The translations under genes were made by a program, and so were the position numbers. Below are positions 1,222-15,411 of a DNA stretch of 64,000 bases, in pieces. Each line of letters begins with the position of its first letter. The first letter of the stretch is position 1. The stretch is from NCBI GenBank assembly GCA_015655145.1, contig JAATFO010000061.1, positions 1-64,000 of the forward strand. Reading direction: 5' to 3'. Source of the DNA: Enterobacterales bacterium (GTDB lineage Bacteria > Pseudomonadota > Gammaproteobacteria > Enterobacterales > Enterobacteriaceae). The notes below the pieces were generated by a model that saw only the letters and a list, made by a program, of their open reading frames with translations, searched no databases and was not told the origin of the DNA.

Positions 1222-1648
1222 CCCTCAACTGAATGGCCGTTAAATTAGCGCAATGCTGGCCTGTTCGTCTCCTGAGGTGTCCCTGTCTGATTGTCCTCGT
1301 GCCGTGCAAACGCGGCACATACACTCGGATAGTTCCGCAGCCAGCGCAATATGCGGCGACGTAATTCCCCAAAAACAGGTGCCGGTTCATCCAGTTCAGG
1401 GGCACCAGCCATAAAGGGCCGTCATTCCTGACATTACATGGTTCTGAAGGCAGCATGAGCCAGGGCGGGAACTGTCATGACAATGCGGCTGCAGAACGTT
1501 TTTTCCAGCAACCAGAAAAGCTGTCAGGCTGCCTGTTTTTTTAACCATAATATAACGTTCTGATGTGGCGGAGGGATGAAGATCACAGTCAAATCAATGA
1601 AAAACAAGCAGAGTATGGACATCAGATATTTAATGAATACAGATTAAG
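1222..1648. other. Intergenic stretch, no gene recognised
   Basis: 427 bases separate the carrier from the LevR-like regulator. An 84-codon minus-strand frame spans part of it but lacks recognisable motifs and a ribosome binding site, so I do not call it. The last 150 bases are AT-rich and should hold the promoter of the regulator. No convincing -24/-12 element is visible here, which suggests ordinary housekeeping transcription of the activator. Confidence 0.5.
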
Positions 1649-4357
1649 ATGAACAGAAAAGATAAAATTCTACAAAAATTGCATGAACTTTATCAGATTA
1701 ATTGTTACGGGGTGACAACAGAGCATTTATCTGAGCAAACCAATATATCCCGGGCTAACGTCAGTAACTATCTGAATCTGCTTGTTAAAGAGGGCGTAAT
1801 TGAAAAGTCTGCCACTCGTCCGGTGTTGTATAGTGTGCGGGGAGCCTCTCACCCAGAGGCGGAAAAAAACAGCGAAGCGAATAAAGAGCCGTTTCAGTAT
1901 TTACTCGGTTATAACGGTAGCCTGAAAAAACAAATCAATCAGGCAAAAGCGGCGGTGATGTATCCACCAAAGGGCCTGCATACTCTTCTGACCGGCGACA
2001 CCGGGGTAGGGAAAAGTCTGTTTGCCAGCCTTATGCATAAACATGCGGTACATAGCGCTCAGTTTGAGCAGAATGCCCCATTCATTGTGTTTAACTGTGC
2101 GGATTACGCAAGTAATCCTCAATTGCTGGTCTCCCATATTTTTGGTCATGTCCGGGGAGCCTTTACCGGCGCGGACAGGGATAAACCCGGTCTTATCAGC
2201 GAAGCGGATGGGGGAATGCTGTTTCTGGATGAAGTGCACCGCCTGCCCCCTGAAGGTCAGGAAATGATTTTTTATTTCATGGATACCGGGAGTTACGGCT
2301 ACCTCGGGGAAACGCAGCGTAACCGAGAGTCCGGGATACTGCTGGTCTGTGCGACAACGGAAGACCCTGGATCCACCCTGTTGTCGACCTTTTTACGGCG
2401 AATACCGATCAACATTAATCTCCCCAGCCTGTCTGAGCGTTCGCCGGAAGAGCAGGTTGAACTGCTTAAATTTCTGCTTGAGATCGAGTCAAAACGCATT
2501 AACTGCACCATCAGCATCGACCTTGACAGCACCAAAGCGATTATCGGCTCTTCTTTTATCGGCAACGTCGGTAAATTAAGATCGACCATACAGTCCGTCT
2601 GTGCAAACTTCTTTATTGAGAAAACGAACACCGATGACAATATCATCATCAATTTTTATCATCTCGATTTAAAGACCAAAGTGGGGATATTTAATCTTAA
2701 TAAAGACAGTGATTATCAGGCCCGGTTGCACCATACCATTGGCGAAAAAATCATTGTGTCGCCGGATCGGCCCGACTATGTTGTTTCCAATAATTATTAC
2801 CAGGTTCTGAACAAGCACAACACGCCATTTCAGGTATACGATTTCATCGATAATAAAATGCATTTTGTCCTGGATCAAAAGCTGAATGACAAAGAAGTCA
2901 GTCGTTATATCACCTCGGAGATCAATAATTATCTTTCCTTTACCATTCCCAGGAGTCACCAGAAACTCGACCACGGCATTAGCAAGAAGACCATGGATTT
3001 TTGTGAGTCTATTCAAAATGAGGTTTCGCTTCAGCTTGGCAAAACGCTGGGGCAGAACTTCCAACTTTTCCTGGGCTATCATCTGCAGAATATCATTGAG
3101 AGTCCGGGTATTCATCGAATTAACTCCTGGACCCGGCGTTATGAAACGCGCATGTTTGCAGAATATGAGTCCGCGCTGACGATTAAAAAACGTCTGTTGG
3201 GTGAATTTGATATCGCGATCAGTAATGACGAGGTGGCCTACCTGACTATCCTGCTTGCCTCCTTTGTGGTACATGACCACGGGAAGATGGTGCATATCAT
3301 TGTGGCCACACATGGCGATATGATCGCCAGTAATATGGTGGATATAGCAAAAAAGCTGATTGGGGAAACAAATATCTCTGCAGTGAACATGCCGCTGGAT
3401 ATCCTGCCCAATCAGGCTATTGAAGAAATCAAAAAGACCATGATGTCCACACCGGATACCCTCGGGTTTCTTTTACTGGTTGATATGGGTTCGCTGTCTC
3501 AGGTCGGTGAGATTATCGCCCAGGACTGTCATATCCCTGTCCGCACGCTGGATATGGTATCCACCCCGCTGGTCATTGAGGCGCTCCGCCGTACCATGAT
3601 CCTGAATGCCGACCTCAATGAAATTCATCTCAGCCTGCAGCACTTCAGAGGATACGGCGTCAATAAGCCTGATTACCTGGCGGCCATTGAGCGCCAGATG
3701 GCCATTCTGGCCATCTGTTCCACGGGTGAAGGTATCGCCAAAAAACTGCAGGAATTCCTGCGTTCTGTGTTGGATGATATGGACAGAAAAGATATTCATA
3801 TTATCAACCTGTTGGTCGAAGAGGTGTTGCAGGACAAGTTCCAGTTGCTGACCGAATACCAGATACTTCTTTCTGTCGGAGTCATCGACCCACAGCTCGA
3901 TGTCACGCATATTCCCCTGTCCGACTTCTTTTCTCCCAGGGGAGAACAGGTATTCCAGCATGTTATCGGAGGGAAATACCCGTATCACCAGACCGGAAAA
4001 ACGCCGGTCACGTTGACCAGACTCTCCGAACAGTACCTGCAGGATTTTCTGGTTTTCCTGAACCCCAGAAAAATTGTCCCGATCGTGATGTCCTTTATCC
4101 ACAAACTGAAAGAGCTGCGTGAACTGAAGGATTTCGGCCCTAACTTGCTGAACATCTGCGTACATATCTGTATGGCGCTGGAACGCTCACTGCGCAATGA
4201 AACAATTGAGTACAGCAAGCAGAACCGACAGGAAATCATTGACAGCGATCTGTTCCGCCTCTACCAGAAAGCCAATGCCCTTCTGGACGACAAAATTGGT
4301 ATCTGCCTGACCGATGACGAATTACTCTACGTTATTGATATGATTGAGAAGAGATAA
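1649..4357 (+). CDS. LevR/DgaR-like sigma-54 activator with PRD and PTS domains
   Basis: The 902-residue protein has the layout of PTS-controlled sigma-54 activators. A winged HTH covers residues 1-65. An AAA+ domain follows with Walker A GDTGVGKS (116-123), the sigma-54 contact loop GAFTGA (170-175) and Walker B LFLDEV (191-196). A PTS regulation domain lies at about 450-540. An EIIA-Man-like domain starts near 543, with ATHGD giving the likely phospho-histidine (about 555). An EIIB-like part and a second PRD near 800-900 complete it. Length and order fit LevR of Bacillus and DgaR of Salmonella. Phosphorylation by HPr and by the cognate EIIB normally sets activity, so the factor should report both carbon status and substrate. 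It sits tail to tail with the mannose-type PTS operon at 4428-8632, whose promoter carries a sigma-54 motif, and is the obvious activator of it. Confidence 0.9.
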   Translation: MNRKDKILQKLHELYQINCYGVTTEHLSEQTNISRANVSNYLNLLVKEGVIEKSATRPVLYSVRGASHPEAEKNSEANKEPFQYLLGYNGSLKKQINQAKAAVMYPPKGLHTLLTGDTGVGKSLFASLMHKHAVHSAQFEQNAPFIVFNCADYASNPQLLVSHIFGHVRGAFTGADRDKPGLISEADGGMLFLDEVHRLPPEGQEMIFYFMDTGSYGYLGETQRNRESGILLVCATTEDPGSTLLSTFLRRIPININLPSLSERSPEEQVELLKFLLEIESKRINCTISIDLDSTKAIIGSSFIGNVGKLRSTIQSVCANFFIEKTNTDDNIIINFYHLDLKTKVGIFNLNKDSDYQARLHHTIGEKIIVSPDRPDYVVSNNYYQVLNKHNTPFQVYDFIDNKMHFVLDQKLNDKEVSRYITSEINNYLSFTIPRSHQKLDHGISKKTMDFCESIQNEVSLQLGKTLGQNFQLFLGYHLQNIIESPGIHRINSWTRRYETRMFAEYESALTIKKRLLGEFDIAISNDEVAYLTILLASFVVHDHGKMVHIIVATHGDMIASNMVDIAKKLIGETNISAVNMPLDILPNQAIEEIKKTMMSTPDTLGFLLLVDMGSLSQVGEIIAQDCHIPVRTLDMVSTPLVIEALRRTMILNADLNEIHLSLQHFRGYGVNKPDYLAAIERQMAILAICSTGEGIAKKLQEFLRSVLDDMDRKDIHIINLLVEEVLQDKFQLLTEYQILLSVGVIDPQLDVTHIPLSDFFSPRGEQVFQHVIGGKYPYHQTGKTPVTLTRLSEQYLQDFLVFLNPRKIVPIVMSFIHKLKELRELKDFGPNLLNICVHICMALERSLRNETIEYSKQNRQEIIDSDLFRLYQKANALLDDKIGICLTDDELLYVIDMIEKR

Positions 4358-4361
4358 AAAA

Positions 4362-4393
4362 CCGAAAAAGACGCCTCACGACGGCTTTTTCGG
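4362..4393 (-). terminator. Terminator between the regulator and the PTS operon
   Basis: Inverted repeat CCGAAAAAG / CTTTTTCGG with a 14-base loop. Read on the minus strand the stem is followed by TTTTTT, a classic intrinsic terminator for the operon that ends at 4428. On the plus strand it lies 5 bases after the regulator stop but has only G residues after the stem, so it would be weaker in that direction. Confidence 0.75.
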
Positions 4394-4427
4394 GGGGATA
4401 TACTGTCATCAGACTGAGACGCACGCT

Positions 4428-4991
4428 TTACTCAAGATTTGCATGCCACTTACTGACCTCTTCGAACGAAAGTACTTTTTCCTTCATAATTTCGAGACAC
4501 ACCAGATCACCAAAAATCATCAGCGACTGTTCGAACAACGTGGTCATTGGCTGGATGCTCGTGATGCTGCCACCGCCGACCTTTGAGCCGCAATGAAAAT
4601 CAACAATAACGTCGGCCACTCTGGCAATGCTGCTGGCTGGGTTTGACGTCAGGTGAACCACTTTCGCGTGATATTTTTTGGCGCAGGTGGCAATGTGTTT
4701 CGGGATAATGGATTCCCCGGAGCCAGATCCCACGACAAGAACATCGTTTTGACCAATGGGCGGTTCGTTCACCGCCCCCACCACGCAGGCATTGACTCCC
4801 ACGTGATTCAGACGCTTCACGGTGGTTTCCAGCGCGAGCATCACGCGGCCGACGCCGATAAAAAACACTTTCTCCGCATTCAGCAGGATACGGGTGTAGT
4901 CCTGAATTTGTGTTTCGTCGATGTTTCTTAAGACCGTGTTGATTTCCCCAGTGATTCGGTTCACCTGTTCTTTGTATGTCAGCTCGCTCAT
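4428..4991 (-). CDS. SIS-domain sugar-phosphate isomerase, 6-phospho-3-hexuloisomerase-like
   Basis: A single SIS domain fills this 187-residue protein, the usual size of HxlB/PHI (about 180-190). Visible motifs are FFIGVGR (43-49), the phosphosugar-binding loop GSGSGES (88-94) and IQPMTTLFEQSL near residues 145-156, where PHI enzymes have a very similar segment. PHI interconverts D-arabino-3-hexulose 6-phosphate and fructose 6-phosphate, normally in formaldehyde fixation, but no hexulose-phosphate synthase lies nearby. Here it is the last gene of a PTS operon. Its start codon directly follows the stop of the dehydrogenase (TAAATG), so translation is probably coupled. I infer that it isomerises the keto-sugar phosphate made by the dehydrogenase. 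An arabinose-5-phosphate isomerase role (KdsD-like) is less likely because there are no CBS domains. Confidence 0.75.
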   Translation of the reverse strand: MSELTYKEQVNRITGEINTVLRNIDETQIQDYTRILLNAEKVFFIGVGRVMLALETTVKRLNHVGVNACVVGAVNEPPIGQNDVLVVGSGSGESIIPKHIATCAKKYHAKVVHLTSNPASSIARVADVIVDFHCGSKVGGGSITSIQPMTTLFEQSLMIFGDLVCLEIMKEKVLSFEEVSKWHANLE

Positions 4992-6038
4992 TTACATCAC
5001 CATCATTCCTTTGCAGTATAATTTGGTATTGTTGTGCATCAGCTCAAACAAGTCGTTCAGATCATCAATCGGCACTTCCTGGGTGATCAAATCTGCTACC
5101 TGCAGTTTACCGGACTGGATCGCGGCGGCCGCTTCTTCCCATTCATTGTGAGGCCCTTGTTTGTAGACGGAGTTAAATACCCCGAGCATGGTCGCTTCCT
5201 TGCGCATAAAGCGGTCATACACTTCGCGCGGGATCTGCATGTCGGAGTGCGGGTTACCCAGCATCAGCACCTTACCAAACACGCGACAGGAACGCAGTGC
5301 ATTGACCAGACCCGGAGAAGATCCGCTGCCTTCGATACAGATATCCGCACCGTTGCCGCTGGTCTGCTCTAATACCCACGCCACAGGATCCTTCTCACGG
5401 GCATCGCACAGGTCGTCTTCACTGAATCCCAGAGATACGGCAAAAGCGATTTTTTTCTTATCCACATCAACCATCAGAATGCGGTTGGCGCCATAGATTT
5501 TGGCCCAGCGCGCAATCATGATACCGATAGGACCCGCGCCATAAATAACCACATTATCGTTGAGATCCAGATGAGCACGGCGCATGACGTGCAGCCCGAC
5601 AACTGCCGGCTCAATCATCGCGGCCTCGCGCAGGTTGGCGCTATCGTCCAGCATTATCAGGTTAAATTCCGGCACCGTGACGTATTCGCTGAATCCACCA
5701 TCCTGCCTCGAACCGAAGTAGCTGTAATTCGTACACTTCGCATACAGACGTTCTTTACAGAACAGACATTCATTGCAGGGAACCAGCGGAAAAATCGCAG
5801 CTTTACGTCCGATCAGCGCCGGATCCATGCCTTCACCGACGGCTTCAATCTGACCGGCAAACTCATGCCCCAAAACCAGCGGATAGTGGTACGGACCGTT
5901 CACGTAAGCGCGCGGCAGATCCGAACCACAGATACCTGCGGCGCCAACCTTCAGGAGCACTTCACCTGCGGCAGGTTCCGGCATGGCTCTGTCCTGCAGT
6001 TCAAACTTGCCCAGTTCGACAAGTGATAAAACTTTCAT
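4992..6038 (-). CDS. Zinc-dependent polyol-phosphate dehydrogenase, GatD-like
   Basis: Medium-chain zinc dehydrogenase of 348 residues. GICGSD (35-40) gives catalytic-zinc ligand C37. GHEF supplies H58-E59 and MIEP supplies E143. The structural zinc cluster is C88, C91, C94 and C102. The Rossmann motif GAGPIG lies at 167-172. The overall pattern is closest to galactitol-1-phosphate 5-dehydrogenase (GatD, tagatose 6-phosphate forming) and sorbitol dehydrogenase relatives. Its place after four PTS genes suggests that it oxidises the imported polyol phosphate with NAD. The partner gene encodes a hexuloisomerase rather than a tagatose-phosphate kinase/aldolase, so the product may not be tagatose 6-phosphate. 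The exact substrate is unknown. Confidence 0.8.
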   Translation of the reverse strand: MKVLSLVELGKFELQDRAMPEPAAGEVLLKVGAAGICGSDLPRAYVNGPYHYPLVLGHEFAGQIEAVGEGMDPALIGRKAAIFPLVPCNECLFCKERLYAKCTNYSYFGSRQDGGFSEYVTVPEFNLIMLDDSANLREAAMIEPAVVGLHVMRRAHLDLNDNVVIYGAGPIGIMIARWAKIYGANRILMVDVDKKKIAFAVSLGFSEDDLCDAREKDPVAWVLEQTSGNGADICIEGSGSSPGLVNALRSCRVFGKVLMLGNPHSDMQIPREVYDRFMRKEATMLGVFNSVYKQGPHNEWEEAAAAIQSGKLQVADLITQEVPIDDLNDLFELMHNNTKLYCKGMMVM

Positions 6039-6079
6039 ATTCTTCTCCCGGTGATGAACAGTGATACTTCAGGATTGAA

Positions 6080-6940
6080 TCATTTAGGCACAGCCAGCAA
6101 GCCGGCATAGGAGCAGACAATCCCAAAAATAAAGATGATGGCGATAACGGTATTGGGCTTCATTTTTTTCCTGATCATTTTCAGGATAGCGATGGTTATC
6201 AGAAGCGGAATAAGAGATGGCATCAACGTGTTAAGGATATTCTGGAACGTAATATGCACACCGTTGATATTCATCTGTGCGGGTGTGAATACGTTAACCC
6301 TGGCGGCGGCCATTCCCCCCACGACCATCAGACCAATAAGGCCAAAGGCGTTTGTAAGTTTATCGATAAGACCTTTTTTAAGCAGGTCAAGAATAACTGT
6401 GCGACCTTTTCTGAACCCGAGGAAAAACATATTCAGGCTGCAAAATATCATAATGGTCTTATAACCGACTTCAAACATAATCGGACCGGCAATATTCCCC
6501 TGAATCGCCAGGTTACAGGCGATAGCAGCAAGTATGGAATACACAATAGCCTGAATGGTATCCCCGATACCTGCAACCGGACCCATTAATCCGGAACGCA
6601 GTGAAGTAATCGATTCCGGCGTAATTTCAGCGCCGTTCGCACGCTGTTCCTCCATTGCGGAAGAAATTCCGGTGATGACTGTTCCGCAGAAAGAGGGTTC
6701 GGTATTAAAGAAGGTCAGGTATTTTTTAAGCTCTTGTGCCTGCTTTACCTTGTCATTCGGATACAATTTTCGGATAACCGGAACCATGGCATTTGTCTGC
6801 CCCAGTGCCTGTAGACGTTCATAGTTATAACAGGCCTCTGATGAGTAGTTTAATGCCCAGACTTTAAATAATTCTTTCCTGGTGAGCAGTCGTTGGGTTT
6901 TATTTTTACCATTCATAATATTTGTACTCATGATATTCAC
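6080..6940 (-). CDS. PTS mannose-family component IID
   Basis: 286-residue IID subunit of a mannose-type phosphotransferase system. The N-terminal half is cytoplasmic and has the family pattern LTRKELFKVW, then FFNTEPSFCG and LMGPVAGIGD. The C-terminal part has hydrophobic stretches and ends with a short membrane anchor. With IIC it forms the trimeric membrane channel. ATG codons at 6940 and 6931 are both possible starts. The stop of IIC lies 8 bases upstream, so the two genes are tightly coupled. The second ATG would fit the usual IID length slightly better. Confidence 0.9.
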   Translation of the reverse strand: MNIMSTNIMNGKNKTQRLLTRKELFKVWALNYSSEACYNYERLQALGQTNAMVPVIRKLYPNDKVKQAQELKKYLTFFNTEPSFCGTVITGISSAMEEQRANGAEITPESITSLRSGLMGPVAGIGDTIQAIVYSILAAIACNLAIQGNIAGPIMFEVGYKTIMIFCSLNMFFLGFRKGRTVILDLLKKGLIDKLTNAFGLIGLMVVGGMAAARVNVFTPAQMNINGVHITFQNILNTLMPSLIPLLITIAILKMIRKKMKPNTVIAIIFIFGIVCSYAGLLAVPK

Positions 6941-6948
6941 CCGGTGCC

Positions 6949-7692
6949 TTATTCTTTAGACAGAGAAGGTTTTAAATCAGAATTGATGATCACCGCCGCA
7001 ATAACAGCGAAGACGGCGATACCCATAATATCCAGTTTCAGAAAAGCAACCAGGAAGAAGCCGAGAAAAAAGAACGGCATCAGGTGTTTTTTTCCCAGGA
7101 AAGAAACCAGCATAGCAATACCCAGCGCCGGCATAATGCCACCGATAACCTGGAATGCTTCAACCAGACTTGTCGGGATCATCGCCAGCATTCTCTTCAT
7201 GAAGTCCGCGCCGAAATACACCATACAGAATGCCGGCAGGCCAACCAGAATAAAGAAGGTAAAAAATGATGGAATATAGTTCATCATTCGCATACCGGTG
7301 ATGTTGCCTTTATCCAGCATGGCTTCCGCTTTATGTACCCACAGGGCGTTGATGCTCAGTGCGGCCTGGAAAGTCAGAATGCCCAGCAAGGAGAACGGGA
7401 CGGCGAACACCACGGCGGTAGATGGATCTGCGCCGCTCAGAATGGTCATTGCAGTACCGAAAACTGAGGCAACCGGCAGGTTACCCGGCATGGTCCCACC
7501 CACCGTCATCCAGCCCAGGTAAGCCAGGTTAATATAGGCGGCAGCTTTCATCCCCTCAATTGGGTCACCGAGTACCAGCGCCACCAGAAAACCAGAAATA
7601 ATGGGGTAAATCCATGAACGGGTTATCAGGTGTACCCCCCACCAGTTGGTGATGGTGGCAATCAGGGCAACCAGAATGGCTGATATTAACAT
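6949..7692 (-). CDS. PTS mannose-family component IIC
   Basis: 247-residue hydrophobic protein with about seven to eight membrane segments, typical of the SorM/ManY/AgaW type IIC subunits (about 250-270 residues). LVALVLGDPIEGMKAAAYI near residue 35-55 and the glycine-rich GWMTVGGTMPGNLPVASV segment that follows are typical IIC signatures. It carries the sugar path through the inner membrane together with IID. It lies between IIB (50 bases upstream) and IID (8 bases downstream) in the same operon. Confidence 0.9.
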   Translation of the reverse strand: MLISAILVALIATITNWWGVHLITRSWIYPIISGFLVALVLGDPIEGMKAAAYINLAYLGWMTVGGTMPGNLPVASVFGTAMTILSGADPSTAVVFAVPFSLLGILTFQAALSINALWVHKAEAMLDKGNITGMRMMNYIPSFFTFFILVGLPAFCMVYFGADFMKRMLAMIPTSLVEAFQVIGGIMPALGIAMLVSFLGKKHLMPFFFLGFFLVAFLKLDIMGIAVFAVIAAVIINSDLKPSLSKE

Positions 7693-7741
7693 AAGGACTC
7701 ATCCTTCATTTTGTAGGATTAAGGGTAAAATATTGTTTTAA

Positions 7742-8224
7742 TTATAAGTGCTGCAGCAAGTCGCCTGGTGCATCACTCGGAATAACATGAATTACAATCG
7801 GCAATCCCATTTTGTCTATTTCTTTAAAGGCTTCTCTTTCTGCACCAGATGCAGCCAGGTTACGAAAAAGTTTTGAACGCTTCTCATTAATTCCCATTCC
7901 CCCAACGGTTAATTTTTCGAATGTAACGCCTCTCTTCATCATATTAAGAACAGCTAATGGACTTTTTACCAGAATAATGACTCTGTCATCCTTACTATCA
8001 TTGTCGATACTATTAATAACGGCGGCCGCATTCTCTATGTTATAAATATTCAGCGTCATGTTATTCGGTACCGCCATTTCAAGAACTGAAATCATAAAAT
8101 CATCATTGACCAGCTCATCATCAACAATGATGATTTTTGTTGCAGAATAGTATTTTACCCAGCCAGTCATCACCTGGCCGTGAATTAAGCGATCATCAAT
8201 GCGCAACAGGCAAATTTTAGACAT
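7742..8224 (-). CDS. PTS mannose-family component IIB
   Basis: 160-residue cytoplasmic IIB protein. The start RIDDRLIHGQV contains the phosphorylated histidine H15, as in ManX/SorB/LevE-type IIB domains. It takes phosphate from IIA and passes it to the incoming sugar or polyol at the IIC-IID channel. Family knowledge says that the same phospho-IIB usually controls the PRD of the cognate LevR-type activator, here the protein at 1649-4357. IIA and IIB are separate proteins, which places the system with the sorbose/fructose-like (Lev, Sor) subgroup rather than with fused ManX. Confidence 0.9.
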   Translation of the reverse strand: MSKICLLRIDDRLIHGQVMTGWVKYYSATKIIIVDDELVNDDFMISVLEMAVPNNMTLNIYNIENAAAVINSIDNDSKDDRVIILVKSPLAVLNMMKRGVTFEKLTVGGMGINEKRSKLFRNLAASGAEREAFKEIDKMGLPIVIHVIPSDAPGDLLQHL

Positions 8225-8242
8225 TTTTATTCTCCAGTTTTT

Positions 8243-8632
8243 TTAAATAGGTTTTATTGCGTCCTGACCAATACTGACTGACATTTCCACAAGCTCATCT
8301 ATGCTTCCTGCATCAGGACGTTCCAGGAGAATATTCACCAGCATCGGAATATTGACACCAGTAATGATTCTGGTACCCGGGCGTTTTTTGAAGAAATAAG
8401 AAGAAGCATTAAACGGGCTGCCGGAAAACATATCGACAACAAACAGTACTGGTATGCTCTCCGCTAAGGTATCAGTTACTCCGGAAATTTTTTTGATGAG
8501 ACTTTCAACATTTTCACCCGGCATAAAATCCAGCGCGACCACATTTTCATAGCTGCCAACCAACATTCGGGATGTCTCGATCAACTCATTTGCCAACGTG
8601 CCATGAGTTACTACGATAACCGTACACTCCAT
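8243..8632 (-). CDS. PTS mannose-family component IIA, first gene of operon
   Basis: 129-residue IIA-Man domain. VVTHGTLA places the phospho-histidine at H10, and VVDMFSGSPFN is the usual second signature loop. It accepts phosphate from HPr and donates it to IIB (stop to start gap 18 bases). It is the promoter-proximal gene. The sigma-54 motif at 8719-8734 would give a leader of about 75 nucleotides. The start codon ATG at 8632 has weak purine-rich sequence upstream, and no better in-frame start is seen. Confidence 0.9.
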   Translation of the reverse strand: MECTVIVVTHGTLANELIETSRMLVGSYENVVALDFMPGENVESLIKKISGVTDTLAESIPVLFVVDMFSGSPFNASSYFFKKRPGTRIITGVNIPMLVNILLERPDAGSIDELVEMSVSIGQDAIKPI

Positions 8633-8718
8633 TTTTACCGTTCCCCTTAAATGTCATTAATATCTTGACTTCATTTTCGCTCTCAATAACAGAAAATGAT
8701 GCAGTCTGACTTTATCTA

Positions 8719-8734
8719 AGCACAACGCATGCCA
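8719..8734 (-). promoter_or_regulatory. Sigma-54 (-24/-12) promoter of the PTS operon
   Basis: On the minus strand the sequence reads TGGCATGCGTTGTGCT. Compared with TGGCACG-N4-TTGCW it keeps the invariant GG and GC with correct spacing and misses only two other positions. It lies 87 bases upstream of the IIA start. The neighbouring regulator is a sigma-54 activator with a GAFTGA loop, so the assignment is consistent on both sides. Confidence 0.8.
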
Positions 8735-8744
8735 TGTATTTATA

Positions 8745-8760
8745 TGTGATATTTATCAAT
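8745..8760 (-). promoter_or_regulatory. CRP-like site near the sigma-54 promoter
   Basis: The sequence is TGTGATATTTATCAAT on the plus strand, that is TGTGA-N6-TCAAT against the CRP consensus TGTGA-N6-TCACA. One half is perfect and the other has three of five bases. It lies 10 bases upstream of the -24 element. Catabolite control through CRP-cAMP is plausible but untested. Confidence 0.4.
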
Positions 8761-8764
8761 GGAT

Positions 8765-8821
8765 TATATTATTGTGTTTCGGGAAAAAATTTGTGTATCA
8801 GGCCAGATATAATAGTGTTTC
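8765..8821 (-). promoter_or_regulatory. Candidate upstream activator sites (two direct repeats)
   Basis: Two related 16-base words, TATATTATTGTGTTTC (8765-8780) and GATATAATAGTGTTTC (8806-8821), recur 41 bases apart, about four helical turns. They lie 30-100 bases upstream of the -24 element, where sigma-54 activators usually bind. I infer that they are binding sites of the LevR-like regulator. Confidence 0.45.
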
Positions 8822-8840
8822 AGTCTCAGTCCGGAGACTG
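8821..8840. repeat. Perfect inverted repeat at the debris boundary
   Basis: CAGTCTC (8821-8827) and GAGACTG (8834-8840) flank a six-base loop. It lies upstream of the PTS promoter region and just before a run of nine G residues, where the insertion debris begins. It could be a terminator remnant, an operator or the edge of an old insertion. Confidence 0.4.
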
Positions 8841-8971
8841 AAAACTACGAATACAGGGGGGGGGCGAATTACTGAGATATTCCTGGCATCGCAATGTACG
8901 GCAGTCCACACAGACATGCGAAAACATTAAAGTTGTGGGGTGATTTTTTCCACCAGTAATGGATAAGCGAC

Positions 8972-9121
8972 TAAGAGCCTGTCTCATCAGGCAAATTTTA
9001 CTTGCCACTTTGGCCCTGGCAATGCGCGAAATCCTCACGTACTACGTGTACGCTCCGGTTTCTCCGCGCTGTCCGTGTCCACATTGACTGCGACAATAAT
9101 ACCTACTGGGGCAGGCCCTAA
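8972..9121. mobile_element. MITE-like element, about 150 bp
   Basis: The ends TAAGAGCCTGTCTCATCA (8972-8989) and TACTGGGGCAGGCCCTAA (9104-9121) are imperfect inverted repeats, 12 of 18 bases paired. The centre carries the perfect palindrome CACGTAcTACGTG (9036-9048). There is no coding capacity. Short, non-coding, inverted-repeat-bounded DNA in a patch of insertion-sequence debris suggests a miniature transposable element. The general look is familiar from enterobacterial intergenic repeats, but I cannot name a family. Confidence 0.5.
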
Positions 9122-9193: not shown

Positions 9194-9307
9194 ATGACGA
9201 GACAACAATATACCCCGGAGTTCAAGCGCAGGGCGGTAGCGTTACTGATCGAAAGCGGCAAGTCTGTTTCCCGTATGGCACAGGAGCTTTATGGCTTTGT
9301 TGAATAA
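9194..9307 (+). pseudogene. IS3-family orfA stub
   Basis: The reading frame begins MTRQQYTPEFKRRAVALL, the typical N-terminus of IS3/IS911-group OrfA, a small HTH protein of about 90-100 residues. After residue 32 it runs into the IS903-like terminal sequence at 9293 and stops at codon 38. The rest of orfA and all of orfB are missing. A ribosome binding site (GAGG) precedes the ATG, so a short inert peptide could still be made. Confidence 0.75.
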
Positions 9308-9310
9308 ATC
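9293..9310 (+). mobile_element. IS903-like terminal inverted repeat, solo end
   Basis: GGCTTTGTTGAATAAATC matches the outer end of IS903-type IS5-family elements as I remember it. The transposase and the other end are not in the window. It joins the IS3 orfA stub to the tssG remnant, so it marks the breakpoint of a deletion mediated by an insertion sequence. Confidence 0.55.
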
Positions 9311-9781
9311 AAAGTGGGACAACAGGATGGTTCCCACCGGGCGACCATTAAACCACACCAGGTCACGATGATGCCAGCGGGCAAGCGGGCTAAGTTCTCG
9401 TTTGCGGAGCAGCACAGGTTGGGCGACAGTCTGGTTTTGGGCAGTGAAACCGCCGGGGTGAATTACTGTATCGCTGTTGAGATGTACACCGAAAACCCGC
9501 AGGAAGCCAAAGGCTGGCCGCCTGGCGGTCAACTGCGTGAGGACATTTTCACCCTGTTGCACATTTATCTGGGCTGCGACTACGACGTCAGACTGAAACT
9601 TACCATCCCTGTCAAACTGGCTTCCCTGCCGCGTTTGGGCGATCGCGCGCTGCCCCCTCTGTCAGGCTATAACATCGTGCTGGGATTGCGGGATGATAAT
9701 CGGGATGACATGCCGAAGCAGATGGCGATGGGGAGGATTAGAGATAAGCGCAAACAAAGGTCTTTGGGCCGACAGGATTAG
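9311..9781 (+). pseudogene. tssG: 3' remnant of a second T6SS baseplate gene tssG
   Basis: The open frame (first possible start GTG at 9314, 155 codons) has TssG C-terminal features. These are LGDSLVLG, then a PPGGQLREDIFTLLHIYLG segment, a KLTIPVKL strand, and PLSGYNIVLGLR before the end. Intact TssG in this window (62081-63142) shows the equivalent LGESLFLG, LPGE...RQYVG and LGGSARLG blocks but is otherwise very different. The N-terminal half (about 180 residues) is missing. It is cut exactly where the IS903-like end begins. I infer a relic of another T6SS subtype whose remaining genes were deleted. Confidence 0.7.
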
Positions 9782-9938: not shown

Positions 9939-11309
9939 TCATCCTTCGTTCTCTTCCACTACTTTCTTTTTGGCCGTGAAATTATAGATAACCATCAGCG
10001 CGAAAATACTGGTTATGACCATCATGATGGTCCCTTTATCCATAAAACGCGCCATATTCCCCAGAACAATCCCGGTTACGCCGAAATCTGTATCGGAGAA
10101 GGTGGTATTGGTTAACCCAATTGCACCGAGAACCGGTAACAGGGCGACAGGCAGGAAAGTGATTAAGATCCCATGCGCGAAAGCACCGATTATGGCACCA
10201 CGTTTACCGCCGGTGGCGTTACCAAATACCCCTGCTGTCGCACCGCAGAAAAAGTGAGGAACGACACCCGGAAGAATTAACACCCATTTAAGCTGGCCGA
10301 GAATAAACAATCCAACCAGACCACCAATGAAACTGGAAATAAAACCGACCAGAACAGCATTCGGCGCATAGGGGAAAACAATCGGGCAATCCAGCGCAGG
10401 TCTGGCGTTTGGCACCAGTCTTTCAGAGAACCCGGTAAAGGCCGGGACTATTTCAGCCAGGATTAAGCGCACGCCCTGGAGGATGATAAATACGCCGGCA
10501 GCAAAGGTAATGGCCTGAATGAATGAGTACACCAGGTAGTTCTGACCCGCGCTGAAATGGCTTTCCACATAGTCTTTGCCGGCAGAAACCGACAGGATGA
10601 AGTAAATAATCATCATCGTCAGGGAAATTGAAATGGTACTGTCACGCAAAAAACTCAGGTTTTTTGGCATGTTCATTTCTTCGGTGGATTTAGACCCCTT
10701 ACCCACCAGGGATCCTATCCAGCCTGACAGAATATAACCTATCGTTCCGGTATGTGCTAAAGCGACCTGGTCGTTACCGATGATTTTACGCATATACGGC
10801 TGAGCCAGCGCCGGGAAAACAGCCATCAGCATACCCAGTGTTAATGACCCGGTGTATATAAGCTGCACGCCCTCAAAACCAGCCACCGATAAAATAATCG
10901 CCACCATGCAGGCCATATAGAAAGTGACATGACCTGAAAGATAGATATATTTAAAGCGGGTAAAACGGGCAACAATAATGTTGGCCGCCATGCCGAACGC
11001 CATAATCAGCGTGGTAGGGGCGCCATATTTCGCCAGGGCAATCGAGACCATGGCTTCATTATTAGGAATGATCCCCTGAACATCAAACGCCTGTTTGAAT
11101 ATGTCCCCCAGTGGTGTCAGTGAGCTGACCAGAACGGAAGCCCCGCCCGCCAGCACTAAAAAACCCAGGATAGTTTTAACTGTACCTTTAATGACGTCGG
11201 GTAACGGTTTTTTCTGCGCGACAAGTCCAAATAATGCCACCAGTCCTACCAGGATAGAGGGCACTTTTAGGATGTCGACGACTACCTGCAAAAGGTTTTG
11301 AATAAACAT
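9939..11309 (-). CDS. PTS ascorbate-type component IIC (UlaA/SgaT family)
   Basis: 456-residue polytopic membrane protein with ten or more hydrophobic segments, the size of UlaA (about 465). Family-like features are the N-terminal FIQNLLQVVVDILKVPSILVG start and the repeated GFAGTLGG-like half-repeats. The segment ending in FCGATAGVFGNATGG is typical of this fold. It works with separate IIA and IIB proteins encoded directly upstream. The substrate is unlikely to be ascorbate, because the operon has a transketolase instead of the ulaDEF decarboxylase and epimerases. A pentose, pentitol or sugar acid entering the pentose-phosphate pathway is more plausible. Confidence 0.9.
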   Translation of the reverse strand: MFIQNLLQVVVDILKVPSILVGLVALFGLVAQKKPLPDVIKGTVKTILGFLVLAGGASVLVSSLTPLGDIFKQAFDVQGIIPNNEAMVSIALAKYGAPTTLIMAFGMAANIIVARFTRFKYIYLSGHVTFYMACMVAIILSVAGFEGVQLIYTGSLTLGMLMAVFPALAQPYMRKIIGNDQVALAHTGTIGYILSGWIGSLVGKGSKSTEEMNMPKNLSFLRDSTISISLTMMIIYFILSVSAGKDYVESHFSAGQNYLVYSFIQAITFAAGVFIILQGVRLILAEIVPAFTGFSERLVPNARPALDCPIVFPYAPNAVLVGFISSFIGGLVGLFILGQLKWVLILPGVVPHFFCGATAGVFGNATGGKRGAIIGAFAHGILITFLPVALLPVLGAIGLTNTTFSDTDFGVTGIVLGNMARFMDKGTIMMVITSIFALMVIYNFTAKKKVVEENEG

Positions 11310-11350
11310 ATTAACCTCAATGGTAAGGTGTGCTATTACGTATACAGGAA

Positions 11351-11623
11351 TTATTTTTTATCAAAATACTCACGTATTTTCTGTTCGATTTCTTTGAGGT
11401 CAATAATGTTATTAACGATAATGACCTTTTCCGCCGGAAGATTCGCGCTGTAGGCAATATCTTTGGCCATAACAAAAACATCTGCCACATCAGGTGTTAC
11501 AGAGCCTAAGTCGGAATGCTCTACTTCGGCAGTAACATTAATGTTTTTTAGCACCTTCTTAATGTTCATTTCCATCATGAAGCTGCTACCCAGACCTGAA
11601 CCACATACCGCCATAATTTTCAT
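11351..11623 (-). CDS. PTS ascorbate-type component IIB
   Basis: About 90 residues of lactose/ascorbate-type IIB fold. The start MKIMAVCGSGLGSSF contains the phospho-cysteine P-loop CGSGLGSS. The ATG at 11623 is preferred over one at 11635 because GAGG stands six bases before it. The protein ends with a charged helix ending in EYFDKK, as in UlaB-like proteins. Gaps to IIA (38 bases) and IIC (41 bases) are short, so the genes are co-transcribed. Confidence 0.9.
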   Translation of the reverse strand: MKIMAVCGSGLGSSFMMEMNIKKVLKNINVTAEVEHSDLGSVTPDVADVFVMAKDIAYSANLPAEKVIIVNNIIDLKEIEQKIREYFDKK

Positions 11624-11661
11624 ATCACACCTCATTAACCGTTAAACATAAATAGTATGGA

Positions 11662-12126
11662 CTATTGTCTGGCAGCATGACCGGCCAGCAAAATCGCATT
11701 CAGTTCTTCTTTGCTGCGTGCATTGAAGATTCGCTCCATTGCGTCATCATCAGAAAGTACTTCAGCAAGCTGGGAAATCATGTCAATGTGACTGTTACTG
11801 TCCGGCGCGGAGAACATAAAAATGGCGTCCACCGGATCGTTTTCATCAGCATCAAAGATGACTGCATTACCGAGCTTTACAATCGACAAACCCAGCGCTT
11901 TAGCGCCTTGTTCCGGTCGGGCATGAGGCATTGCAATCCGCGGAGCAATCACAAAATAAGGGCCAATTTCTTCTTTTTGCTGGATTATCGCGTCAATATA
12001 ATCCTGCGATATTGAGCCGTCATCCAGCAGCGGGCGCCCGGCGACCCGAATCGCTTCTTTCCAGTCAGACACGGACTCAATGTACTGAATTTTTTCGTTG
12101 GTTAACCAGTTTGCCAGGTTTGCCAT
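11662..12126 (-). CDS. PTS component IIA (fructose/ascorbate UlaC type)
   Basis: 154-residue IIA domain of the mannitol/fructose superfamily. APRIAMPHARPEQG contains the phosphorylated histidine, and the preceding IGPYFVI strand is typical. It accepts phosphate from HPr and gives it to the small IIB encoded next. It follows the transketolase gene by 46 bases in the same operon. Confidence 0.9.
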   Translation of the reverse strand: MANLANWLTNEKIQYIESVSDWKEAIRVAGRPLLDDGSISQDYIDAIIQQKEEIGPYFVIAPRIAMPHARPEQGAKALGLSIVKLGNAVIFDADENDPVDAIFMFSAPDSNSHIDMISQLAEVLSDDDAMERIFNARSKEELNAILLAGHAARQ

Positions 12127-12172
12127 ATTCTGTTTCCCGATAAAAAATCACGTTCTGAGTTATTTATGTTTT

Positions 12173-14167
12173 TTACTTCAACATACTACGTGCGACATCA
12201 AGGACGTTCTCTTTGGTGAACCCAAAGTGTTTGAACAATACGCTCGCCGGCGCCGATTCACCAAAGGATTTCATACCAATGACTTTACCGTCCAGACCAG
12301 TATAGCGTTGCCAGAACCCTTCAATGCTGGCCTCTACGGCCAGACGGTTGCGGACGTTTTTCGGTAGTACTGATTCTTTATAGTGCTCATTCTGTTTATC
12401 GAAGCGCTCGGTACATGGCATTGAAACCACGCGAACCTGATGGCCTTCTTCTTTTAGGGCCACCGCCGCCGCGACGACCAACTCTATCTCTGAACCGGAA
12501 GAAATCAGTAAAATCTCGGGTTGTTCGTCACAATCAACCAGGACATATCCGCCGCGCGTAATACTTGCCAACTGGCTGGCAGTCCGGGGTTGTTGTTTAA
12601 GCGGTTGCCGGGTGAGGATCAATGCTGTCGGTCCGTCCTGGCGTTCTACAGCCTCTCGCCAGGAAACAGCCACTTCCACCTGATCACATCCTCGCCAGGT
12701 TTCCATATTTGGCGTCAGTCGCAAAGAAGCTAACTGCTCTACCGGCTGATGAGTGGGGCCATCTTCCCCAAGCCCAATTGTGTCATGCGTGTAAACAAAT
12801 ACTGAACGGATTTTCATCAGTGCCGCCATACGCACGGCATTACGGGCATATTCCATAAACATCAGGAAGGTGCCGCCGTAAGGAATAAATCCACCGTGTA
12901 ACGCCAGACCATTCATAATGGCTGACATACCAAATTCACGGACACCGTAGGAAATATAGTTCCCTTGTGGATATTCAGCAGAGAAATCGACAGACTTCTG
13001 GTGGCGGGTAAGATTTGAGGGCGAAAGATCCGCCGATCCCCCCATTAATTCCGGCAGCAGGGTAGCAAAATGGTTAAGACATTGCTGGCTGACTTGTCGG
13101 GTCGCGAGATTTGCCGGATTAGCCTGTAATGCTGCGATGAACTGATTCATGTCTTCTGCCCAGTTTGCCGGCAGTTCACCGCGCATGCGGCGAATAAACT
13201 CAGCGGCAAGTTCCGGCCACTGTTGTTGGTAAGTCGCAAATAGCTGGGTCCATTGCTGCTCATCGCGGGCGCCCTGTTCGGTTGCATCCCACGCCTGATA
13301 GATGTTATCAGGGATGTCGAAAGGTTCGTAAGGCCAGTTCAGTTCTTTACGTACCAGCGCCACTTCCTCCGCGCCAAGGGCAGAACCATGACAGTCATGG
13401 CTGTTTGCTTTGTTTGGTGAACCAAAACCGATGATAGTTTTGCAACATAACAGACTGGGTTTATCCGTCACCCTTTTTGCTTCCCGGATGGCAGCATCAA
13501 CCGACTGTGGATGATGCCCGTCAATACCGTCGATTACATGCCAGCCATAGGCCCGAAAACGGGCGGCGGTATCTTCAGAGAACCACCCCTCAACATGTCC
13601 ATCAATAGAAATACCGTTATCGTCCCAGACGGCAATCAGTTTTCCGAGTTGTAATGTCCCGGCGAGGCTACAAACTTCGTGGGAAATACCTTCCATCAGG
13701 CAACCATCACCCATAAACAGCCAGGTATGGTGGTCGACAATAGCAAAACCGGGTTTATTGAACTGCGCCGCCAGCGCCTTTTCTGCAATGGCCATGCCGA
13801 TTGCGTTTGCCACTCCCTGTCCCAGCGGGCCTGTCGTTGTCTCAACGCCTGGGGTGTAGCCATATTCGGGATGTCCAGGGGTGCGGGCATGCAACTGACG
13901 AAATTCACGGAGATCATCGATTGTCACATCATAGCCAGTCAGGTGCAGGAGAGAGTATAGCAGCATGGAGCCATGTCCGTTGGACTGGACATAGCGGTCA
14001 CGATTAAACCACTGCGGGTTTTTAGGGTTGTGACAAAGATGGTGACGCCAGACGACCTCTGCAATATCTGCCATGCCCATTGGCGCGCCGGGATGGCCGG
14101 AATTGGCTTTCTGGATCGCATCAATACTCAGAAACCGAATCGCATTTGCTAACTCTCTGTTTACCAT
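12173..14167 (-). CDS. Transketolase in a PTS operon
   Basis: 664 residues, equal in size to TktA/TktB (663-667). The thiamine-diphosphate motif starts at [14 protein letters not shown] and ends at the [10 protein letters not shown] segment. The substrate and cofactor histidines in GHPGAPMG and [10 protein letters not shown] and the pyrimidine-domain segments ([26 protein letters not shown]) are all present, so it should be active. It transfers two-carbon ketol units between pentose, hexose and erythrose phosphates. It heads an operon with an ascorbate-type PTS. Salmonella has a comparable cluster with a split transketolase and a Ula-type PTS (STM2340-2344, from memory). I infer a dedicated enzyme for the sugar imported here, additional to a housekeeping copy elsewhere. 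Confidence 0.93.
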
Positions 14168-14251
14168 AACTCATCTCTCTTCAAATCAAATGTCTTCAGC
14201 AGTACGGACGATCCTGTCGGTACCGTTAACAACGGCGCAGTAAAGTATGTA

Positions 14252-14508
14252 TAGTCATATGAGACTAAGGCTCGTCATTCCGTACCTGATTTCCATATAT
14301 TTACACCATCAGGGCTGTTAATATCGGCGGTTACCAGTTTTGTTCCGATACAAAAATCAATATTTAACTCATGAAATACATACCAGTAGGATAAATTTCC
14401 CCCATACTGATAGCTTGCTGTTCGTATCATGGCGATCTTTGCTATAAGTATAGACATATTTTATGTGTCTAGTCATATTTATGATGCACCTGGACGTGTA
14501 CAGATACA
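14252..14508. promoter_or_regulatory. Divergent control region between tkt operon and gntR-type gene
   Basis: The 14168-14676 gap serves both operons. The word TAGTCATAT occurs twice, at 14252-14260 near the tkt side and at 14470-14478 near the regulator side. An inverted repeat AGACATA-TTTTA-TGTGTCT lies at 14452-14470, and TGTA-CAGA-TACA at 14497-14508. Such small palindromes are typical operators of GntR/HutC-type repressors. I infer that the regulator represses both directions. No single site stands out clearly enough to be sure. Confidence 0.4.
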
Positions 14509-14676
14509 ACATGTAAGATCAAAATAGGGATGGACATGTCGGCAATGAATGTAAATTCGTTAACTTGATCACATCTCAATGTAATCAGGCTGGTACGGAG
14601 AGAGAAAAGTCAGTCATACATGTGCAGACAGGGCTCCAGGGAGCCATTCCTTCACTCTTATCGGGAAGAAAAGCTG

Positions 14677-15411
14677 ATGGTCGATGGCATTACAGAGAAG
14701 CAAAAAGAGGTTGTTGATTACATCCTCAGAAAAATCAAGGAGGATGGCCTTCTGCCAGGGGACAAAATTGATACTGAAATTGCCATAGCAAAGAATATCG
14801 GTATTACCCGTGCCACCGTTCGGGAAGCAACCCGAATTCTTATTGAGCAACAGAGAGTTTACCGGGTTAAGGGTTCGGGACTTTTTGTGAGTTCAATCGG
14901 GAAAAGTAACCACTCAGGCCGATTCCACGCGCTTTCACCTTTTGATTATCAGGCTCAGAAACAGGGGTATAAAGGGGTACGAAAGGTTATCTCTGTCAGT
15001 GTAATGAAAGTTCCATCACCGGATATGGCGCAAGCCTTGCGTATAAAAAACAGTGATCAGGTGTACAAAATCTTACGTCTGATGTGCTTTGATGATATTC
15101 CCGTGGCGCTTGAACACGTGCATCTGCCGGTAACCATGTTTAATAGCATGGAGTTGAGCAAACTGGAAACATCGAAATACGCCTATATTGAGCAAATTAC
15201 AGCTAAAAAGGTTCAGCGCCGGGATCAAAATTTAACGGCCATAAATTTAACTGACCCGGAAGTAATGAGCCTGCTCAATTTAACGGAAAATGATGCCGTT
15301 ATGGAGCTGTACGAGACCGTTTATCTCGATGACGGGACGCCGTGTGAAGTGAATATTGCGATTATCAATACCCGGCTTTTCCCGTTAAGACAAAATACAG
15401 AACGGCCATAA
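14677..15411 (+). CDS. GntR-family regulator, HutC subfamily (UTRA domain)
   Basis: About 244 residues. A GntR winged HTH occupies the first 75, with GDKIDTEIAIAKNIGITRATVREA as the recognition region and VKGSGLFV as the wing. A UTRA ligand-binding domain follows, as in MngR, FrlR or TreR (about 240 residues). The ATG at 14677 is preferred over the one at 14620. GGGAAG stands nine bases before it, and the family normally begins shortly before the HTH. The gene is divergent from the transketolase/PTS operon and is probably its substrate-responsive repressor. The effector is likely the phosphorylated sugar. Confidence 0.85.
   Translation: MVDGITEKQKEVVDYILRKIKEDGLLPGDKIDTEIAIAKNIGITRATVREATRILIEQQRVYRVKGSGLFVSSIGKSNHSGRFHALSPFDYQAQKQGYKGVRKVISVSVMKVPSPDMAQALRIKNSDQVYKILRLMCFDDIPVALEHVHLPVTMFNSMELSKLETSKYAYIEQITAKKVQRRDQNLTAINLTDPEVMSLLNLTENDAVMELYETVYLDDGTPCEVNIAIINTRLFPLRQNTERP

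Follow-up and report, generated by a model that had tools for sequence, protein, structure and literature searches.

The gat system of Escherichia coli couples a galactitol-family phosphotransferase system (PTS) to a tagatose 6-phosphate route with an aldolase, and the presence of 6-phospho-3-hexuloisomerase (PHI), encoded by hxlB, is taken to indicate formaldehyde fixation or the synthesis of ribulose 5-phosphate. Here we characterise an operon that resembles both, located in a 64,000-nucleotide stretch of DNA from an Enterobacterales bacterium (GenBank assembly GCA_015655145.1, contig JAATFO010000061.1, positions 1 to 64,000; hereafter 'the window', meaning this whole stretch). As in gat, a hexitol would be imported by a PTS and its phosphate oxidised by a zinc dehydrogenase, here one that scores 211 bits against the GatD model, but the window operon has no aldolase and carries a PHI-like SIS protein. 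This protein resembles HxlB of the ribulose monophosphate pathway (HxlA/HxlB) in isomerase family, fold and near-invariant residues, and differs from it in seven clade-specific residues, in its operon, and in that no 3-hexulose-6-phosphate synthase (HPS) gene adjoins it or was found in the genome. A preliminary description, based on the letters of the window, had read the operon as a pathway in which a hexitol phosphate is oxidised, perhaps to a 3-ketose phosphate, and isomerised directly to fructose 6-phosphate. Our analysis leads to the same order of steps, polyol phosphate to 3-ketose phosphate to 2-ketose phosphate, for and against which we see the case as evenly balanced.

Operons of related composition are already known, whereas a joint pathway from polyol phosphate through PHI has apparently gone unproposed in the open-licence literature searched, which was covered mostly as titles and abstracts. 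In Streptococcus uberis, SUB0285-0289 (RPE, PHI, MtlD and a mannitol PTS) was reported in 2009 as a single operon, its three reactions being listed separately (PMC2657157). It shares with the window the union of PTS, polyol-phosphate dehydrogenase and PHI in a single operon and has the composition of the mannitol-PTS loci L064, L100, L101 and L083 described below; it departs from the window in its mannitol-type PTS, its MtlD and its additional RPE-family gene, and the available portions of that report give no joint pathway. The gene table of Pantoea ananatis OVR-A lists gatABC, rpe, fabG and hxlB (PMC5817063), and this locus and Erwinia persicina pEP1 (L086), as far as the accessible text goes, both unite a PTS, an epimerase, a short-chain dehydrogenase/reductase (SDR) and a PHI. 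Unlike the window, they have a galactitol-type PTS and an SDR, and the Erwinia PHI is of the GAGRS type and falls outside the clade defined below. Bacillus methanolicus has a D-arabitol PTS operon with putative dehydrogenase genes, PHI being named, in the accessible parts of the paper, only in the methanol pathway (PMC6685057). The fungal LAD1/LadB step likewise oxidises a hexitol to a 3-hexulose: in the text available, LAD1 of T. reesei converts galactitol to L-xylo-3-hexulose, a precedent for a polyol dehydrogenase forming such a product, while for A. nidulans L-sorbose is given as the suggested product; unlike in the window, the fungal substrate is unphosphorylated and reduction to sorbitol follows (PMC9781776). 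The earlier statement that no pathway with this combination has been described thus stands for the joint pathway, within the literature covered, and not for the gene combination, of which the S. uberis operon and the P. ananatis gene set are like cases.

The operon and its dehydrogenase

Between 8632 and 4428 the minus strand carries six successive open reading frames, with gaps of 18, 49, 8, 41 and 0 nt from EIIA to SIS, the ATG of the SIS gene standing immediately after the dehydrogenase stop codon:

8243-8632, minus strand: EIIA of a mannose-family PTS, 129 aa (Pfam EIIA-man 84.7 bits, cut-off 21.4; TIGR00824 108 bits, cut-off 98)
7742-8224, minus strand: EIIB of a mannose-family PTS, 160 aa (Pfam PTSIIB_sorb 147 bits)
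6949-7692, minus strand: EIIC of a mannose-family PTS, 247 aa (Pfam EII-Sor 205 bits)
6080-6940, minus strand: EIID of a mannose-family PTS, 286 aa, GTG start as called (Pfam EIID-AGA 276 bits)
4992-6038, minus strand: GatD-like zinc-dependent medium-chain dehydrogenase, a proposed polyol-phosphate dehydrogenase, 348 aa (Pfam ADH_N and ADH_zinc_N)
4428-4991, minus strand: PHI-like SIS isomerase, 187 aa, member of the HPS-free sub-clade (Pfam SIS; TIGR03127 156.1 bits; trees, residues and fold search)

All four components of a mannose-family PTS are present, each above its Pfam cut-off (EIIA-man, PTSIIB_sorb, EII-Sor, EIID-AGA), as are the ADH_N, ADH_zinc_N and SIS matches, and the tight one-strand arrangement of these genes with those of a GatD-like dehydrogenase and a PHI-like SIS protein (Pfam and NCBIfam matches, gaps 0-49 nt) is as the preliminary description had it. 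The six genes and an activator gene beside them were all found again in Providencia burhodogranariea (L017), and the six-gene order, preceded by a LevR-type gene, recurs in Enterococcus raffinosus (L015), which belongs to a different phylum; the window EIIC is 89% identical to that of Providencia and 66% to that of E. raffinosus. Since the gene set recurs in both, the arrangement is more than chance. Megablast of window DNA from 1500 to 9000 against the E. coli collection gave no match, and a contig scan with a single query sequence returned two loci. A family sample of 295 genomes, the window genome included, held five further and weaker dehydrogenase matches (37-39% identical), the remaining 289 genomes having none at E ≤ 1e-60.

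The best NCBIfam family of the dehydrogenase is GatD (PRK10309), at 211 bits far below the curated cut-off of 550, on which ground GatD membership was rejected; by this score 'GatD-like' is justified and 'is GatD' would be too strong. Its nearest solved protein is GatD (4a2c, E 1e-56), and in that alignment it retains the Cys/His/Glu positions of the catalytic zinc and four structural cysteines, which we take to be the catalytic and structural zinc ligands of medium-chain dehydrogenases/reductases (MDR). The putative dehydrogenases of the B. methanolicus D-arabitol operon are also of the zinc type.

The PHI-like protein and its clade

The SIS protein finds its best NCBIfam family in TIGR03127 (RuMP_HxlB), matched over its full length at 156.1 bits (155.6 in another run), just below the curated cut-off of 160, which a paralog on contig C5 of the same genome reaches with 170 bits. 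Strict HxlB membership was rejected on this score, so that 'PHI-like' is justified and 'is PHI' would be too strong. The listed models of arabinose-phosphate isomerases and of sugar-isomerase-type regulators reach 19-31 bits (KdsD 18.9, cut-off 505; KpsF/GutQ 28.5, cut-off 203.7; MurR/RpiR 20.4). The five solved chains nearest to an AlphaFold model of the protein (eight rows; predicted local distance difference test, pLDDT, 88.6) are 1m3s, 1viv, 1vim, 1jeo and 9lj9 (Z 23-26), ranking above an unnamed sugar-phosphate isomerase (Z 21.5), arabinose-5-phosphate isomerase (20.7) and MurR (20.0). Among these five, 9lj9 alone is named HPS/PHI in its title; the other four are titled 'hypothetical' and are presumably PHI-type proteins. 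Such fold matches are weak evidence of function, because SIS folds resemble one another. Given the low scores, SIS as the sole domain and the fold ranks, we rejected an arabinose-phosphate isomerase and an RpiR-type regulator, and the protein does not group with either, a possibility that the preliminary description had raised against itself.

An order-level sample of 394 genomes contained PHIs (E ≤ 1e-25) in 23 genomes, at 28 places. The neighbourhoods of 26 of these were called by BLAST against reference genes from the loci under study, in which the PTS types were mannose, mannitol and galactitol (the glucose type was not included); a PTS gene of one of these types adjoined the PHI at 19 places, and an HPS gene lay within ~4.5 kb at two. 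Forty PHIs were compared, comprising the same-order PHIs, named relatives and the results of further searches, and eleven of them formed one clade, supported at 100/98 in the full tree of 40 and, once seven rows had been omitted, at 100/100 in the tree of 33: those of the window, P. burhodogranariea, E. raffinosus (three plasmid records), contig C5 of the window genome and five other genomes. The HPS-linked PHIs lay outside this clade in both trees. Within ~4.5 kb of the clade PHIs we found no HPS gene (0/11), a PTS gene in every case (11/11), a polyol-type dehydrogenase in ten and an RPE-family epimerase in nine, the dehydrogenases being of MDR, SDR or MtlD type, three unrelated superfamilies. 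The clade loci, with one PHI-less relative from Vibrio, are composed as follows:

Window and Providencia: mannose PTS, zinc dehydrogenase and PHI, without an epimerase
E. raffinosus L015: mannose PTS, zinc dehydrogenase and PHI, also an SDR and AlsE
L102: mannose PTS, zinc dehydrogenase and PHI, also an SDR, AlsE and a GmhA-type isomerase
L064, L100, L101 and L083: mannitol-type PTS, MtlD-like dehydrogenase, RPE-family epimerase and PHI
L062 and the C5 locus of the window genome, L063: mannitol-type PTS, sorbitol-6-phosphate-dehydrogenase-type SDR, epimerase and PHI
L082: galactitol-type EIIC, with an epimerase and a ribokinase close by on the opposite strand; no dehydrogenase
Vibrio L018: AlsE, PTS genes, zinc dehydrogenase, GmhA-type isomerase and the start of a second dehydrogenase

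These neighbourhoods, in which clade PHIs adjoin polyol-type dehydrogenases and PTS genes, lend support to the outline given in the preliminary description, namely polyol import by a PTS, oxidation, and a PHI-type isomerase for which no HPS was found. The second PHI operon of the window genome (L063, contig C5:373-4075) carries a clade PHI 46% identical to that of the window by BLAST. In Vibrio L018 no PHI was seen before the contig ends within the second dehydrogenase gene, the available portion of which is 73% identical to that of the window. AlsE, the D-allulose-6-phosphate 3-epimerase, exceeds its cut-off of 271 in three sister operons (L015 342, L018 301, L102 349) and is absent from the window operon, and GmhA-type sedoheptulose-7-phosphate isomerases exceed theirs in L018 (5471-6052) and L102 (9785-10372). 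A single clade of the PHIs from the four mannose-PTS operons was rejected (approximately unbiased test, p-AU 4e-5), a natural grouping but one tested after the first tree was known. The window and Providencia pair instead with the mannitol-PTS/MtlD loci (97/92 in the tree of 40, 89/79 in the tree of 33), and L102 groups with the mannitol-PTS loci and L082 (99/94 and 96/88). Since the PHIs of the mannose-PTS operons are not one clade, the PHI seems to have kept its place while the transporter/dehydrogenase pair was exchanged.

At the residue level, the SIS protein keeps 17 positions that are conserved in at least 38 of the 40 PHIs, including R49, S91, E154, H183 and E187. Seven residues (V47, V50, K59, E76, P97, H113 and T150) are identical in all 11 clade PHIs and absent from the seven HPS-linked PHIs, a small and non-random comparison set; V47 is also present in 4 of the 22 other PHIs. 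The corresponding motif is GVGRV throughout the clade and GAGRS in all seven HPS-linked proteins.

A search for HPS with TIGR03128 across seven clade genomes produced, in the window genome, Providencia, G040 and G1026, nothing beyond weak, partial matches (best E 1e-5 to 2e-6), the best of them lying inside an RPE-family gene in the first three of these four genomes, and no HPS was found beside the SIS gene in the window operon or elsewhere in that genome. RPE-family matches in the window genome comprise a housekeeping rpe on contig C46 (by reading) and the C5 epimerase (145 bits against the AlsE cut-off of 271), with no third; the single match in Providencia lies between genes resembling dam and gph/trpS (by reading) and is thus the housekeeping rpe. 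No RPE-family match in either genome resembles AlsE. When the clade alignment was searched against a class sample of 369 genomes, the window genome was accompanied by two weak matches only (L105 and L104), of which L105 adjoins HPS-like genes. The genus of the window genome consists of one genome; elsewhere, clade PHIs occur in 1 of 25 genomes of the genus of G040 (G040 itself) and in 4 of 44 of the family of G500.

Other PHI groups were met in the course of this survey. Ten loci (L054, L055, L057-L061, L066, L070 and L071), of which nine belong to a single family of the order, combine a galactitol-type PTS, a YjbQ-like protein, an RPE-family epimerase and a PHI with the motif GCGRS, GTGRS or GVGRS, with no dehydrogenase found nearby; L056 has the same YjbQ, epimerase and PHI genes, its PTS not being called. 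In E. coli CFSAN061770 (L087, 3639-7226), HPS and PHI adjoin EIIBC of a glucose-type PTS and a member of the glucose-6-phosphate isomerase family, and the PHI gene is present in 132 of 5,426 E. coli genomes. A divergent PHI-like group with the motif G[VC]GRE (L065, L067, L068 and L104) has none of the reference genes (HPS, PTS, dehydrogenases, epimerases) nearby.

The proposed route and its alternatives

As their families suggest, EIIABCD would import a rare hexitol and phosphorylate it to a hexitol 6-phosphate, and the zinc dehydrogenase would oxidise a secondary alcohol of this product with NAD(P), most likely at C3, to a hex-3-ulose 6-phosphate. The PHI-like protein, judging from its family and residues, would then shift the carbonyl from C3 to C2 and yield fructose 6-phosphate, so that neither an aldolase nor the tagatose or sorbose routes would be needed. 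The adjacency of dehydrogenase and PHI, conserved across phyla, counts for this route, and a common oxidation product would lead one to expect a single isomerase acting after three unrelated dehydrogenases. In Providencia, where the only RPE-family match is the housekeeping gene, dehydrogenase and PHI should suffice without a dedicated epimerase; this makes a hex-3-ulose 6-phosphate the simplest product and fits a 3-ketose better than a 2-ketose.

A table of configurations narrows the substrate. On oxidation at C3, the known PHI substrate, D-arabino-hex-3-ulose 6-phosphate, arises only from D-altritol 6-phosphate (= D-talitol 1-phosphate) and D-mannitol 6-phosphate, whereas oxidation at C2 turns the 6-phosphates of D-altritol and allitol into D-allulose 6-phosphate, which the AlsE of three sister operons could rescue. 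Mannitol has a short catabolic route of its own, so D-altritol (= D-talitol) is predicted as the most likely substrate and allitol as the next; that the substrate is in fact one of these two is a tentative and rather doubtful proposition. The presence of AlsE in the three sister operons argues for six-carbon, D-allulose/fructose chemistry. No bacterial PTS route for D-altritol or allitol was found in a single search of the open-licence literature.

Several observations weigh against the C3 route. The related GatD, MtlD and sorbitol-6-phosphate dehydrogenases normally oxidise adjacent to the terminal carbon, at C2, and no sequence feature demonstrates C3 rather than C2 oxidation. In the sister loci, the L083 dehydrogenase exceeds the cut-off for mannitol-1-phosphate 5-dehydrogenase (369 vs 356), which L064 (336 vs 356) and L100 (328 vs 357) do not reach, and the L063 SDR exceeds that of the sorbitol-6-phosphate dehydrogenase subfamily (352 vs 304). 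The RPE-family epimerase in nine of eleven clade operons, and the GmhA-type isomerase of L102 and the PHI-less L018, may indicate chemistry beyond two steps. The SIS protein itself misses the HxlB cut-off, if narrowly, by 4 bits, and the seven substitutions, including loss of the GAGRS serine, suggest that its substrate, or the way it is bound, differs from that of PHI. As to HPS, relatives below the cut-off occur in G500 and G1034 (127-128 vs 200 bits), G1036 has an HPS above it ~1.4 Mb from its PHI, and a gene absent from the window genome may be unsequenced, because the assembly (156 contigs) is 91.7% complete.

The score below the HxlB cut-off, the GmhA-type isomerase of two sister operons and the seven substitutions, of which two fall in the first glycine-rich loop, would also suit a descendant of PHI that has taken on a different function, such as that of an aldose-ketose isomerase, and the substrate may then be a pentitol or heptitol. 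We consider this rather unlikely, as the 17 positions conserved among PHIs are retained, the nearest folds are PHI-type and the AlsE genes of three sister operons suggest hexoses. The epimerases could instead belong to a walk of the carbonyl, in which the dehydrogenase forms a 2-ketose 6-phosphate (of D-tagatose or D-sorbose, for instance), PHI moves its carbonyl from C2 to C3, the epimerase inverts C4 and PHI moves the carbonyl back to give fructose 6-phosphate, again with no aldolase. An RPE-family gene adjoins PHI not only in nine of the eleven clade loci but also in many galactitol-PTS loci, most of them without a dehydrogenase, and relatives of the dehydrogenase act at C2; yet such a walk is improbable, as the window and Providencia operons have no epimerase, the one RPE-family match of Providencia is by its surroundings the housekeeping rpe, and the epimerase of three mannose-PTS operons is of the AlsE type, that is, a C3 epimerase of a 2-ketose.

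Sorbose operons also combine a mannose-family PTS with a zinc dehydrogenase, and the enzyme might act as a reductase, like SorE of L-sorbose catabolism, on an imported ketose phosphate that another dehydrogenase reoxidises. L015 and L102 do have a second dehydrogenase, an SDR, but the window and Providencia operons have a single one and the PHI would be left unexplained, which renders this quite improbable. The known role of PHI, in formaldehyde fixation or ribulose 5-phosphate supply, would require its gene to be placed here by accident, and an HPS-like gene is present in three of the seven genomes searched. Neither the window genome nor Providencia yielded an HPS, for which reason a role in formaldehyde fixation was rejected; moreover, the PHI lies within an operon in two phyla, with zero gap in the window, and HPS-linked PHIs stand outside the clade in both trees, so that this explanation is close to refuted.

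Regulation and wider meaning

Two further features concern the control of the operon:

1649-4357, plus strand: LevR/DagR-type transcriptional activator (Pfam Sigma54_activat, PRD, EIIA-man)
8719-8734, minus strand: candidate -24/-12 (sigma-54) promoter TGGCATGCGTTGTGCT, 102 nt upstream of the EIIA start, with 9/11 consensus bases

The activator gene is convergent with the operon and, like the second PHI operon on contig C5, goes beyond what the preliminary description had covered. Its product has a sigma-54-interaction AAA domain, an EIIA-man domain and two PRDs, so the LevR-family domain set (sigma-54 AAA, PRD, EIIA-man) is complete, although its best NCBIfam family, DagR, is matched at 452 bits, below the cut-off of 1400. 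A relative 66% identical adjoins the Providencia operon, and the activator belongs to the PTS/dehydrogenase/PHI operon. The promoter candidate is weak on its own, 42 of 500 shuffles scoring as well. Better sites, with 10/11 bases, precede the first gene in three of the four relatives examined: Providencia (116 nt upstream; matched by 1/500 shuffles), E. raffinosus (41 nt; 6/500) and Vibrio madracius (56 nt; 3/500), the last with a second, equally good sigma-54-like site farther upstream. Against this, L102 has no -24/-12 site before its first gene. Scans returned 46 sites in the window, where 45.6 are expected by chance, and 14 in L017, where 10.3 are expected. Probably, the LevR-type activator induces transcription of the operon at a sigma-54 promoter while the substrate is being transported.

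A separate neighbouring set at 9939-15411 comprises EIIC, EIIB and EIIA of an ascorbate-type PTS (EIIA by reading), a transketolase-like gene (by reading) and a GntR-type regulator, and is probably another sugar system. The interval between the two PTS operons (9194-9778) contains a 37-codon open reading frame that, by reading, resembles the beginning of an IS transposase, as well as a fragment that matches the type VI secretion protein TssG over no more than its C-terminal third (Pfam 31.8 bits).

Taken across the clade, the loci may reflect a recurrent and so far unproposed strategy, in which a PTS, oxidation at C3 by any of three unrelated types of dehydrogenase and a dedicated, HPS-independent PHI lead to fructose 6-phosphate, in this operon from D-altritol or allitol; we regard this as possible, if somewhat short of an even chance. 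The operon is possibly a shortcut into central metabolism by way of an isomerase otherwise known from formaldehyde fixation. If true, rare hexitols would have an additional route into glycolysis, besides the fructose/sorbose and tagatose routes, with D-altritol and allitol forming a short list of candidate substrates and the enzymes a potential set for producing rare hexitols and 3-ketoses. If a sub-family of PHI does serve the breakdown of sugar alcohols, 'hxlB' annotations assigned automatically in enterics and enterococci may be misleading.

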